Part shown: positions 23,816 through 32,661 of the stretch, in pieces | Numbering within the stretch: the stretch's first letter is position 1 | How the letters are laid out: each line of letters begins with the position of its first letter | Program-made: the position numbers and the translations under genes | The notes under the pieces: generated by a model | What the model was told of the DNA's origin: nothing | The model's input: only the letters and a program-made list of their open reading frames with translations | Databases searched by the model: none | NCBI RefSeq assembly: GCF_002119405.1 | Contig: NZ_MTBG01000032.1 | Location: 1-35,386 of the forward strand | DNA length: 35,386 bases | Direction: 5' to 3' | Source: Pseudoruegeria sp. SK021 | GTDB lineage: Bacteria > Pseudomonadota > Alphaproteobacteria > Rhodobacterales > Rhodobacteraceae

Positions 23816-25117
23816 TCAGACGTAGCGGTTTACAAGGTTTTCAAGCCGTTCCTGCCGTCCCGAGCGCGGCGCAGGGTTCACGCCCTCGGCCTCGACACGG
23901 GCGGCGATCTCGTCAAAGCCCCCGGCAAGCATGGCCTGCGCCTCGGCCCCGTCCCACCCTGCGTAACGTGCCTGCCGGGCCTCTTCGAGCTTGCCGTCTT
24001 CCAGCATCTTCACCGCCGCCTTAAAGCCGGCTGCGCAAGCGTCCATACCGCCGACATGCGCAAGGATCAGATCCTCGGCATCCAGCGACTGACGCCGCAA
24101 CTTGCTGTCGAAGTTGGTGCCGCCGGTGGTGAAGCCGCCCGCGCGCAGCACCTCGTAATAGGCCAGCGCCATCTCGGGCACATTGTTGGGGAATTGATCG
24201 GTGTCCCAGCCCGACTGATAGTCGTTGCGGTTCATGTCGATGGAGCCAAAGATCCCCAACTCGCGCGCCAGCGCCAGCTCGTGCTCGAAGCTGTGACCGG
24301 CAAGGATCGCGTGGCCCTGCTCGATGTTGACTTTAACCTCTTTCTCCAGACCGAAATCCTTCAGGAAGCCATAGACCGTCGCCACGTCGTAATCGTACTG
24401 GTGCTTGGTCGGCTCTTGCGGCTTCGGCTCAATCAGGATGGTGCCGTCGAACCCGATCTTGCGGGCGTATTCGACAGCTTGGGTTAGGAACCGTCCGGCC
24501 TGCTGGCGCTCGCGCCCCATGTCGGTGTTCAGCAGGGTTTCATAGCCCTCGCGCCCGCCCCAAAGCACGTAGTTCTCGCCGCCCAACTGGTGGGTGGCGT
24601 CGATGCAGGACTTCACGGTTGCGGCGGCGAAGGCATAAACCTCGGGGTCGGGGTTGGTCGCGGCCCCCGACATATAGCGCCGGTGCGAGAACAGGTTGGC
24701 GGTGCCCCACAAAAGCTTGGTGCCGGTCGCCTCCATCTTGCCTTGGAAGTAGTCGGTGATTTCGCGCAGGTTGCGGGTGTTTTCGGCAAAATCCGCGCCC
24801 TCGGGCCGCACGTCCACGTCGTGGAAACAGAAATAGGGCGCATCGAGGATCTCGAACATTTCAAAGGCCACATCGGCCTTGAACTTGGCCTTGGCCATCC
24901 CCTCGCCGAACCAAGGCCGATCGAAGGTCTGCCCGCCAAAGGGATCGCCGCCCTCCCACGCAAAGCTGTGCCAATAGGCGACCGAGAAGCGCAGATGCTC
25001 CTTCAGTGTCTTGCCCATCACCACCTCGTTCGGATCGTAGTGTCGGAAGCCGTAATCGTTGTCACTATCGGCGCCCAAATGGCGGATCGCCGGGATACCT
25101 TTGAAGAACTCAGTCAT
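23816..25117 (-). CDS. xylA: Xylose isomerase
   Basis: Converts D-xylose to D-xylulose (and D-glucose to D-fructose) in the cytoplasm. The 433-residue product belongs to the long (class II, about 440) group. The catalytic His99 and Asp102 lie in FCFHDVDV, and the metal ligand Glu230 with Lys232 in [28 protein letters not shown] and the Trp-lined pocket ([10 protein letters not shown], 51-60) are also intact. The ATG at 25117 matches the family N-terminus (MTEFFKGIP) with AAAGG upstream; a GTG at 25135 overlapping the thuA-like stop is an alternative. It is the last gene of the operon. No xylulokinase gene (xylB) is found in the window. Confidence 0.95.
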
Positions 25118-25131
25118 GGTGTTCTTGCCTT

Positions 25132-25788
25132 TCACTTGTCTGTCGTGCGGCTGGCCCAGACCAGTCCGCGGCGGAGGATCTCGCGCATTTGCGGCACCGC
25201 GAATTCAGCGGCTTGGTGGCCCAATGCCGAATAAAATACCCGGCCCAGACCGTGCTGGCGGGTCCAGACCACCGGCATCACGGTGCCAGCGGTCCATGGC
25301 GCGTGGCTGCCATCGAAGGTCGTGGTCGCAAGCACATCGTTACCGGGATCCACATGCATAAAATATTGCTCGGAATGGTAGTCGAAATCGCCGATTCCCT
25401 TCATCAACGGATCCTGCGGCTCGGCGATCTCGATGCGGTAGTCGATGATGTTGCCGGGATGGGCCACCCACTGGCCGCCCACCATGAATTGATAGGCCGG
25501 CGCATCGCGGAAGGTATCGCCCATGCCGCCATGAAAACCTGCAAGGCCGGTGCCCGCCTCAATCGCTGCACAGAGCCGTTCAAGCGGCTCCTTTTCGATG
25601 CTGACCTGCGTGCACAGCGGCACGATCAGATCGAATTCTGACAGATCAGCCTCGCCCAATATGGTCACGCCGGCCTCGGACCGAACTTCGAACCCTTCGA
25701 CCCGAAGCATCTCGGCCACGACGGCGGCGCAGGCCTCTGGCTCGTGCCCCTCCCAGCCACCGTGGAAAATAAGTGCGTTGCGGGTCAT
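25132..25788 (-). CDS. ThuA-like domain protein
   Basis: Cytoplasmic 218-residue protein of the ThuA (trehalose-utilisation) family with a flavodoxin/class-I glutamine-amidotransferase-like fold. Hallmarks are the N-terminal [28 protein letters not shown] in the middle (about 92-106), and the late [15 protein letters not shown] stretch. In rhizobia ThuA acts with ThuB on 3-keto sugar derivatives from disaccharides, but the reaction of stand-alone ThuA-like proteins is unclear. The ATG overlaps the oxidoreductase stop (ATGA), with AGGAGGAA inside the preceding codons as its binding site. It is directly upstream of xylA. Confidence 0.85.
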
Positions 25789-31362: not shown

Positions 31363-31388
31363 GACGCGCGCCCGTGAGGACGCGCGTC
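31363..31388 (-). promoter_or_regulatory. Stem-loop between SBP1 and the permease genes
   Basis: A perfect 8-bp inverted repeat (GACGCGCG / CGCGCGTC) with a 10-base loop lies 13 bases after the binding-protein stop. No T tract follows. As at the other transporter in this window, it is likely a stabilising or attenuating element that gives higher binding-protein expression. Confidence 0.55.
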
Positions 31389-31401
31389 GGGGAGGAACCT
31401 C

Positions 31402-32661
31402 TCAGCGGAAATCCCAAGCCTCTTGGACCTGCGCTGCCGCTTCCTCGGGCGTAATGACGCCCTGTGCCAGATCGGCCGAAATGTCGTTCACCGTGGCGCC
31501 CACCGAAGCCCCGAGGAACTGGTCGAGGAAAATCTGGTGATAGCTCGACGCGGCGATGTCCTGCGCGACCTGCTGGAAGAACGGATTTTCCAGCGCCTCA
31601 CCGGCCCCCTTCACGATTGGGATAAAGATGCCCTCACGCGCGACTTCTTCTTGGTGATCGCGATTGAGCATGAAGGTCAGGAAATCGACCGTCCCGGGCG
31701 CTGCGTCCGACGTCACGGCCCAGCCATTCATGCCGCCCAAGGTGACGCTGTCACCGCCCGCAGAGACGGGGTCAACGATCGCAGGAAAAGCGATGATGGC
31801 CAGTTGGTCGTCCGGCAGGCCCTCGCCGCTTTGCGACCGCCCCCGCATCGGCAGATAGTCCCACTCGCCCATCAGGTGCAACGCTCCCGCCCCGTCGGCG
31901 AACATGCCGCTGGCGGTTTCATAAGTCGTGCCCATGAACCCCGGCTGGAACGGCTCGAGATCGGTCAGCATTTGGAAATCGGCACCGGCCGCCACGAATG
32001 GCGCGGCCTCAAAGCCGCCATCCGCGCCCGCCATCGCCGCAATCACGACATCTGGACCACCTTCGCGCAATGCCAAGTAGCTCCAGTAAAAGTGCAGCGG
32101 CCACTTGTCCTGACCACCGACAACGATCGGGGTGACCCCGGCGTCCTTCATGGTCTGCACCGCCACCAGAAGATCATCCCACGTCTTGATCGCGGTGTAA
32201 TCGACACCCGCCTGCTCGGTCAAAGCAGTGTTGACCCAGAAGACAACTTCGGTCGCATAAAGCGGCAGCCCGTGCAGCGCTCCATCCACGGTATAGGCCG
32301 TGAGCGCGGCATCGGGGAAAGTGGCCCGCACGTCCTCGGTAAGATCGCCCGAGATGTCTTTCAGAAAGCCTGCCTCGGCTTGCTCGACGATGGTCTGGCC
32401 GCCCCAGCTGTAGAAGATGTCCGGCCGGGCATCGGATTGCAGCAAGGTCGGCAGTTTGGACTTGTAGGCCTCGTTGGCAATGTATTCGAACACCACATCG
32501 ACATCGGGGTTCTGCGCCTCATAGGCCGCCTCGACCCGGCCATAGAAGGCTTGCTCGGCAGCGCCCGGTTGTACCCGCAGCACGCGGATCTCTTCCTGCG
32601 CCAGAGCGGCGCCACTCCAGGCTGCGCCCGCCATCAAAGCCGTCGCCATCACAATTTTCAT
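31402..32661 (-). CDS. SBP family 1 carbohydrate-binding protein
   Basis: Periplasmic binding protein of the CUT1 importer. The 419-residue product begins with a Sec signal (about 1-22, cleavage after ALA before QEEIRVL) and an extracellular solute-binding family 1 domain with DIFYSWGGQTI, AYTVDGALHGLPLYATEV and a late TLGGMNGWAVTSDA ligand-pocket segment. The ATG at 32661 has GGGAGGA six to seven bases upstream; codons further upstream are spurious. It is the first transport gene after the LacI regulator. The ligand is inferred to be a xyloside, from the GH43 and xylA neighbours. Confidence 0.93.
   Translation of the reverse strand: MKIVMATALMAGAAWSGAALAQEEIRVLRVQPGAAEQAFYGRVEAAYEAQNPDVDVVFEYIANEAYKSKLPTLLQSDARPDIFYSWGGQTIVEQAEAGFLKDISGDLTEDVRATFPDAALTAYTVDGALHGLPLYATEVVFWVNTALTEQAGVDYTAIKTWDDLLVAVQTMKDAGVTPIVVGGQDKWPLHFYWSYLALREGGPDVVIAAMAGADGGFEAAPFVAAGADFQMLTDLEPFQPGFMGTTYETASGMFADGAGALHLMGEWDYLPMRGRSQSGEGLPDDQLAIIAFPAIVDPVSAGGDSVTLGGMNGWAVTSDAAPGTVDFLTFMLNRDHQEEVAREGIFIPIVKGAGEALENPFFQQVAQDIAASSYHQIFLDQFLGASVGATVNDISADLAQGVITPEEAAAQVQEAWDFR

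Follow-up and report, generated by a model that had tools for sequence, protein, structure and literature searches.

A conserved, probable xylo-oligosaccharide operon of Pseudoruegeria sp. SK021 that may join hydrolysis to a second, oxidation-based route

Within the 35,386-nucleotide stretch of Pseudoruegeria sp. SK021 DNA analyzed here (the window, which is contig C32 of a 3.97-Mb genome), nine adjoining genes encode a LacI-family regulator, a sugar-binding protein (SBP, the receptor), MalF- and MalG-type permeases, a GH43 enzyme, a MalK-type ATPase, a Gfo/Idh/MocA oxidoreductase (Gfo), a ThuA-domain protein (ThuA) and the xylose isomerase XylA (Table 1). We give an even chance to the reading that this cassette is a xylo-oligosaccharide operon in which a hydrolytic route (GH43 and XylA) stands beside a second route based on oxidation (Gfo and ThuA). 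The receptor and the MalFGK importer would take up short beta-xylosides intact, GH43 would cleave them to xylose, XylA would convert the xylose to xylulose, and a xylulokinase would complete the route. With NAD(P)+ as cofactor, Gfo would oxidize one hydroxyl group of the xylosyl residue, C3 being the most likely position; the resulting keto-glycoside would be the substrate of ThuA, which would open its glycosidic bond, possibly for linkages or aglycones beyond the reach of GH43.

Profile searches (Pfam and NCBIfam) recovered on the minus strand all of the genes named in an initial annotation of this DNA. From LacI through SBP, MalF, MalG, GH43, MalK, Gfo and ThuA to XylA, the intergenic gaps are 116, 68, -4, 4, 27, -4, -4 and 14 bases with the starts as chosen, and an alternative GTG start of XylA at 25135 would replace the 14-base gap by a 4-base overlap with ThuA. 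The four- or zero-base spacing described earlier therefore holds for most junctions but not for every one.

The best solved relative of the window SBP is XylC of Vibrio sp. EA2 (8XBA/8XBB/8XBC; E 1e-112), followed by the xylo-oligosaccharide receptor 3zkk (E 1e-44). XylC is reported to prefer beta-1,3-xylo-oligosaccharides, with W91, W191, W271 and D382 as essential residues (PMC12125979). The window SBP retains 12 of the 16 XylC contact residues, including all four essential ones; the changed positions are I35, T37, M139 and F275, which may bear on any preference for beta-1,3 over beta-1,4 linkages. An XylC-type xylo-oligosaccharide ATP-binding cassette (ABC) importer is thus a well-supported prediction, and its ligands are probably short beta-xylosides, most plausibly xylo-oligosaccharides, and beta-1,3-linked ones of algal origin are likely among them. 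The earlier proposal that short xylosides are imported is backed by the XylC homology and the largely retained pocket; its suggestion of trehalose as a possible ligand found no support.

Import and hydrolysis of short xylan fragments are likewise well supported as a predicted function. The GH43 protein, the only GH43 match in its own genome, combines PF04616 with a GH43_C2 domain and has beta-xylosidases as its nearest solved relatives (1yrz), and XylA scores above its equivalog cut-off, in line with the hydrolysis and isomerization first proposed; the linkage preference of GH43, like the ligand of the receptor, is something that we infer. A xylulokinase is encoded elsewhere in the genome, and beside the cassette in Marinovum. 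By-eye inspection found a hydrophobic N-terminal leader in the SBP and none in GH43, Gfo, ThuA or XylA, which are therefore taken as cytoplasmic. The genome yielded two GH3 proteins, no PF02156 match and no GH10 or GH26 xylanase (these two families were searched, other xylanase families were not), a set that suits a scavenger of oligosaccharides better than a degrader of the polymer.

Comparison across genomes indicated that the nine genes form one conserved unit. Among the 80 named loci retrieved with the window Gfo protein, the best 80 of 566 relatives, all nine genes occur in identical order in four, namely Marinovum (L002), Tranquillimonas (L004), Paracoccus onubensis (L006) and P. hibiscisoli (L008). 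LacI precedes the SBP gene in these four and in Jiella (L003), whose cassette is complete but for XylA, and Mameliella (L007) retains a partial MalK, Gfo, ThuA and XylA. The closest named cassette relative within this set is that of Marinovum algicola FF3 (81-95% protein identity). The same order is present in two further genomes of the family (L113 and L115, the latter with XylA at a contig edge), in L108 without XylA, and on plasmids of Marinovum DG898, Palleronia LCG004 and P. liaowanqingii (LacI match partial). On a plasmid of Paracoccus AK26 (L084:5085-15041), the LacI, SBP, MalF and MalG matches are fragmented, and the annotation gives GH43, MalK, Gfo, ThuA and XylA as whole genes, as would be expected of a cassette in decay. 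Because the order, whose conservation the initial annotation had proposed to check, recurs across several genera, it is not due to chance, and the plasmid location, together with the position of Jiella (Aurantimonadaceae) among Rhodobacterales rows of the Gfo tree, suggests spread by horizontal transfer. The receptor was found in at least 6 of 385 alphaproteobacterial genomes and at least 8 of 394 genomes of the family, both lower bounds with the first few candidates per genome scored; it was not found in G721, the sole other genome of the genus in the family sample. Two plasmids carry further genes of note: directly behind the cassette of Marinovum pMaD2 (L082:23650-34859) lie a second sugar ABC set and genes for LacI, a FAH-family protein, an aldehyde dehydrogenase and a dehydratase, as in an oxidative pentose route, and a second Palleronia plasmid (L092:9932-11191) bears an orphan XylC-type receptor gene with neither MalF nor MalG adjoining.

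In addition, the gap between LacI and SBP, poorly conserved in alignment, contains conserved sites resembling TGAYGTACGTTNGTCA, represented in the window by TGATGTACGTTGCTCA. The pattern TGANNTACGWNNNTCA located a site between LacI and SBP in all 12 cassette loci scanned, and the reversed pattern had no match in 259 kb. Additional sites lie upstream of LacI in L003, L006, L083, L113 and L115, and one lies upstream of the Marinovum xylulokinase gene. In two Devosia loci (L009:9841 and L014:9954) a site stands upstream of a lone Gfo gene, from which LacI diverges in L009; isolated matches in L065 and L070 are probably due to chance. In the window alone, the 16-base pattern with up to three mismatches has two matches, a count reached by 19 of 100 shuffles, so the operator case rests on position and conservation and not on rarity. 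LacI would be the putative regulator of an operon for scavenging short beta-xylosides. A wider regulon was considered and rejected, as the genome holds two pattern matches, one at the cassette and the other, taken as chance, within a sulfatase reading frame.

A second, oxidative route can reasonably be inferred from the behavior of Gfo and ThuA, which appear to travel as an inherited pair. ThuA is the only PF06283 match in its own genome. Gfo lies less than 400 bases from ThuA in 40 loci including the window (36 without the re-fetches L110, L112, L114 and L130, the first three being L020, L015 and L004 again, counted once), among them loci from Planctomycetota (L028), Lentisphaerota (L058) and Hydrogenedentota (L074). 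Across the 385 alphaproteobacterial genomes, this ThuA occurs in 6/6 genomes with the receptor versus 4/379 without it (Fisher 4.8e-11, or 1.9e-9 with the own genome dropped), and in those four it is only 40-45% identical and has no such Gfo nearby. In five of these six receptor genomes, ThuA and receptor are no more than 10 kb apart; in G247, ThuA and Gfo are neighbours on a different short contig. Five of the eight receptor genomes of the family sample have the pair close to the receptor (G000, G470, G711, G607 and G494), and among the plasmid records listed (44 receptor records, and 40 of 279 Gfo records) a Gfo lies within 10 kb of 35 of the 44 receptors. In the Gfo tree (59 of 92 available rows, with L082, L022, L023 and 30 ThuA-less rows omitted), the window falls within an 11-row clade in which ThuA adjoins throughout (support 100/100). 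On the idea that ThuA stands in for an AP_endonuc_2 partner, one AP_endonuc_2 query matched 40 of the 71 loci without the pair and, in the 40 pair loci, only L084, there from a second cluster; because the query itself was drawn from the ThuA-less group, this result is no more than suggestive.

Receptor loci are of four kinds, with gene labels assigned at 40% identity or more within 9 kb and with receptor matches below 200 bits or of at most 330 amino acids excluded, so that the broken Paracoccus AK26 receptor and the contig-edge L120 are absent. GH43, Gfo and ThuA occur together in 12 distinct rows, one of them the window, with W91, W191, W271 and D382 in 12/12. Gfo and ThuA occur without GH43 in 11 distinct rows, with K72, W91, W191, D382 and Q383 in 11/11 and W271 lost in 7/11, which suggests that in these receptors the first xylose site was retained and its partner changed. 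GH43 occurs without the pair in Halomonas (L093), Neorhizobium (L098) and G494 (L116). Neither occurs in L092, L094 (a GH30 gene beside the receptor), L095, L109 (a short contig, with Gfo-ThuA elsewhere in the same genome), L118 and L119. The initial idea of two routes in one unit is plausible, as the importer exists both with the pair and no GH43 and with GH43 and no pair. In genome G161 (1.6 Mb, 96% complete), the operon reads SBP-MalF-MalG-Gfo-ThuA-XylA with W271 kept, Gfo and ThuA being 41% and 46% identical to those of the window, and four sulfatase genes lie upstream. A search of G161 found no GH3 and one partial GH43 match below the cut-off, other xylosidase families not being searched; the open frame behind it fits GH32N best (60.4 bits) and also reaches 40.0 bits for GH43, above the cut-off of 32.2. 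The search thus turned up no GH43 resembling the beta-xylosidases, with some doubt left by this one frame.

In structure alignments covering 38/43 Gfo rows and 21/26 ThuA rows (ThuA starts set by the nearest start codon), K94, D177 and Y181 of Gfo are invariant in 38/38 rows, and the invariant residues of ThuA include H86, E140 and H191. The predicted models have mean predicted local distance difference test (pLDDT) values of 94.7 for Gfo and 89.8 for ThuA. The best PDB profile matches of Gfo are DgpA and DgpA1 (7xr9 and 9m3d), of the same Gfo/Idh/MocA family and 20-23% identical by fold alignment, and the best single-sequence match is scyllo-inositol dehydrogenase; all three have His where Gfo has Y181, which is aligned to the Tyr of another family member, the sugar 3-ketoreductase 3rbv (Phe in the related entry 3rc7). 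DgpA acts at C3. Oxidation by Gfo at C3 rather than C1 is favoured, as a prediction from sequence, although in the models the fold neighbours do not separate the two. Profile scores of Gfo lie far below the cut-offs of all NCBIfam models that it matches (inositol 73.8/355, levoglucosan 63.5/650, xylose Gfo6 55.2/350 and BT_2159 disaccharide 3-dehydrogenase 26.6/650 bits), so the merged pathway first proposed is not undercut by assignment of Gfo to the known xylose or inositol dehydrogenases or by a loss of gene order. For ThuA, NCBIfam gave no match, and its nearest fold neighbours are ThuA-like structures without assigned function; in searches of open-licence papers we found neither a reaction assigned to these solved proteins nor, in full text, a xyloside operon with ThuA. 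In Paenibacillus, ThuA and ThuB lie by a maltose transporter, and 3-keto-maltose was inferred (PMC4765114). The 3-keto chemistry of the initial annotation had been borrowed from its Thu label, which failed, and has here the standing of a prediction.

Several observations weigh against the two-route reading. On contig C1 the genome holds a second XylA, which comes after XylB; a ROK gene and genes for a sugar ABC transporter precede the two. In identity, the XylA of the cassette is no closer to most other cassette XylAs (54-75%, that of Marinovum excepted) than to this copy (73%). In three of the eight receptor genomes of the family sample the pair is not seen in the vicinity of the receptor (G708, G634 and G541, the last at a contig edge), and the state of ThuA as next gene requires seven changes over the whole Gfo tree, which shows that the two genes are not invariably paired. 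W271 is lost in 7/11 receptors of GH43-less pair loci, which may bind a ligand different from that of the window. In fold comparisons, scyllo-inositol/L-glucose dehydrogenase (5yab), DgpA1 and aldose-aldose oxidoreductase (5a03) resemble Gfo to the same degree, and any activity of Gfo and ThuA is deduced from their sequences. If the two do act on xylosides, a tentative possibility is that they form a two-protein, redox-neutral xylosidase, in which Gfo would use NAD+ to oxidize the non-reducing xylosyl residue at C3, ThuA would cleave the 3-keto-xyloside either hydrolytically or through elimination and hydration, and Gfo would reduce 3-keto-xylose to xylose for XylA. GH4 and GH109 are NAD-dependent glycosidases, and such a system, if true, would be their split counterpart, would give this type of ThuA its first defined role and would explain why the G161 operon has XylA without GH43. 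It is possible, if doubtful, that Gfo instead acts as a dehydrogenase at C1, either on free xylose or on the reducing end of imported oligosaccharides, and that ThuA handles the lactone or sugar acid, so that isomerase and oxidative xylose routes are joined. The fold neighbours 5yab and 5a03 (solved with xylose) favor this, as do the dehydratase and aldehyde dehydrogenase genes downstream in Marinovum and relatives of the enolase superfamily in 4/36 distinct pair loci; the best hint at such an acid-forming alternative is Roseivivax (L005:7276-11651), where SBP, Gfo, ThuA and, 31 bases behind it, an enolase-superfamily gene stand in a row on a contig without MalF, MalG or MalK matches. However, the gene next to the pair in the window, in its kin and in G161 encodes XylA and not a xylonate dehydratase, and the Gfo6 xylose dehydrogenase score is low.

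We regard it as unlikely that the operon is hydrolytic only, with Gfo and ThuA serving another imported glycoside or a decorated xyloside through the shared importer and not the substrates of GH43. Halomonas and Neorhizobium, with importer and GH43 but no pair, are consistent with such a division, and so is the altered second site of receptors in GH43-less pair loci, but in G161 the pair shares an operon with the importer and XylA, and the receptor there retains W271. Highly improbable is a true thu operon (for trehalose, maltitol and sucrose isomers) to which xylan genes were added. The operon taken here as thuEFGKAB of Sinorhizobium meliloti 1021 (L086), identified in an unannotated record and checked by Pfam and gene order, reads SBP, MalF, MalG, MalK, ThuA (PF06283, 116.7 bits) and Gfo/Idh, and it shares with the cassette the broad families of SBP, Gfo/Idh and ThuA and a similarity of MalF, MalG and MalK. 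Yet the order of ThuA and ThuB is the reverse of that of Gfo and ThuA in the window, the receptor is of the XylC type, and sequence similarity is remote or partial: window Gfo is 35% identical over only 139 amino acids to ThuB, which sits on a very long branch of the Gfo tree, window ThuA 23% over 98 amino acids to the S. meliloti ThuA (E 0.001) and the window SBP 25% over 259 amino acids to ThuE (E 5e-5). Orthology is thereby refuted, and the earlier statement that the cassette reproduces the thuEFGKAB set survives only for broad protein families.

For the two-route reading, the G161 operon and the window operon, which adds GH43 and MalK, provide a natural with/without comparison on a nameable substrate class, and the role of ThuA is therefore testable with two purified proteins. 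The results also correct annotation, as a Gfo-ThuA pair next to a MalFGK importer need not belong to a thu system, and they point to the scavenging of xylan fragments by an organism in whose genome GH10 and GH26 searches found no xylanase.

Table 1. Features of the xylo-oligosaccharide cassette and of a second sugar cluster in the window.
Feature	Positions	Strand	Evidence
LacI-family regulator, first gene of the cassette	32778-33806	minus	PF00356, PF13407
Operator-like site, LacI-SBP gap	32723-32738	minus	position and conservation
XylC-type sugar-binding protein	31402-32661	minus	SBP_bac_1; 8XBA E 1e-112
MalF-type permease	30410-31333	minus	BPD_transp_1, PF00528
MalG-type permease	29583-30413	minus	BPD_transp_1, PF00528
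GH43, predicted beta-xylosidase, with GH43_C2 domain	27932-29578	minus	PF04616 328 bits, PF17851; 1yrz E 5e-168
MalK/UgpC-type ATPase	26897-27904	minus	NF008653 460 bits, cut-off 432
Gfo/Idh/MocA oxidoreductase	25785-26900	minus	PF01408, PF22725
ThuA-domain protein	25132-25788	minus	PF06283 156.8 bits, cut-off 33.4
Xylose isomerase XylA	23816-25117	minus	TIGR02630 662.6 bits, equivalog cut-off 533.25
Second cluster, divergent LacI	22742-23752	plus	
Second cluster, SBP5	20674-22566	minus	
Second cluster, GHL6	18481-20652	minus	
Second cluster, two Opp-type permeases		minus	
Second cluster, fused OppD/F-type ATPase	14608-16455	minus	
Second cluster, AP_endonuc_2	13812-14648	minus	
Second cluster, NAD_binding_2	12943-13815	minus	
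Second cluster, GH42	10758-12851	minus	

The second sugar cluster of the window (10758-23752) lies on the minus strand apart from its divergent LacI. In addition, adjoining genes for a molybdopterin dehydrogenase, a 2Fe-2S protein and a cytochrome c occupy 4163-8819, and a DDE_3 transposase fragment lies at 35034-35369, close to the window end.

Among known systems, the xul locus of Vibrio sp. EA2 for beta-1,3-xylan comprises XylCDEF, Xyl43, Xyl3, XylA, XylB, XylRA and GH26 xylanases (PMC12125979), and, like the window, it unites an XylC-type receptor and its ABC importer with GH43 and XylA. The two differ in that xul has the XylR-type XylRA and the window LacI, that xul has GH26 xylanases and none of GH10 or GH26 was found in the window's genome, and that the window adds Gfo and ThuA to the xul-like set, terms absent from the text of PMC12125979. 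A near relative lies on pSymB of S. meliloti Ak57 (L085), where ROK, Gfo and ThuA genes stand with a divergent SBP-MalF-MalG-MalK set, and where Gfo, ThuA and SBP are 55%, 58% and 40% identical to those of the window over nearly their full length. In contrast to the window, this locus lacks GH43 and XylA, has ROK in place of LacI and has Asn at receptor position W271. S. meliloti thus has both kinds of system, thu in strain 1021 and the L085 type in strain Ak57, and by these identities the Pseudoruegeria cassette is kin to the L085 type.

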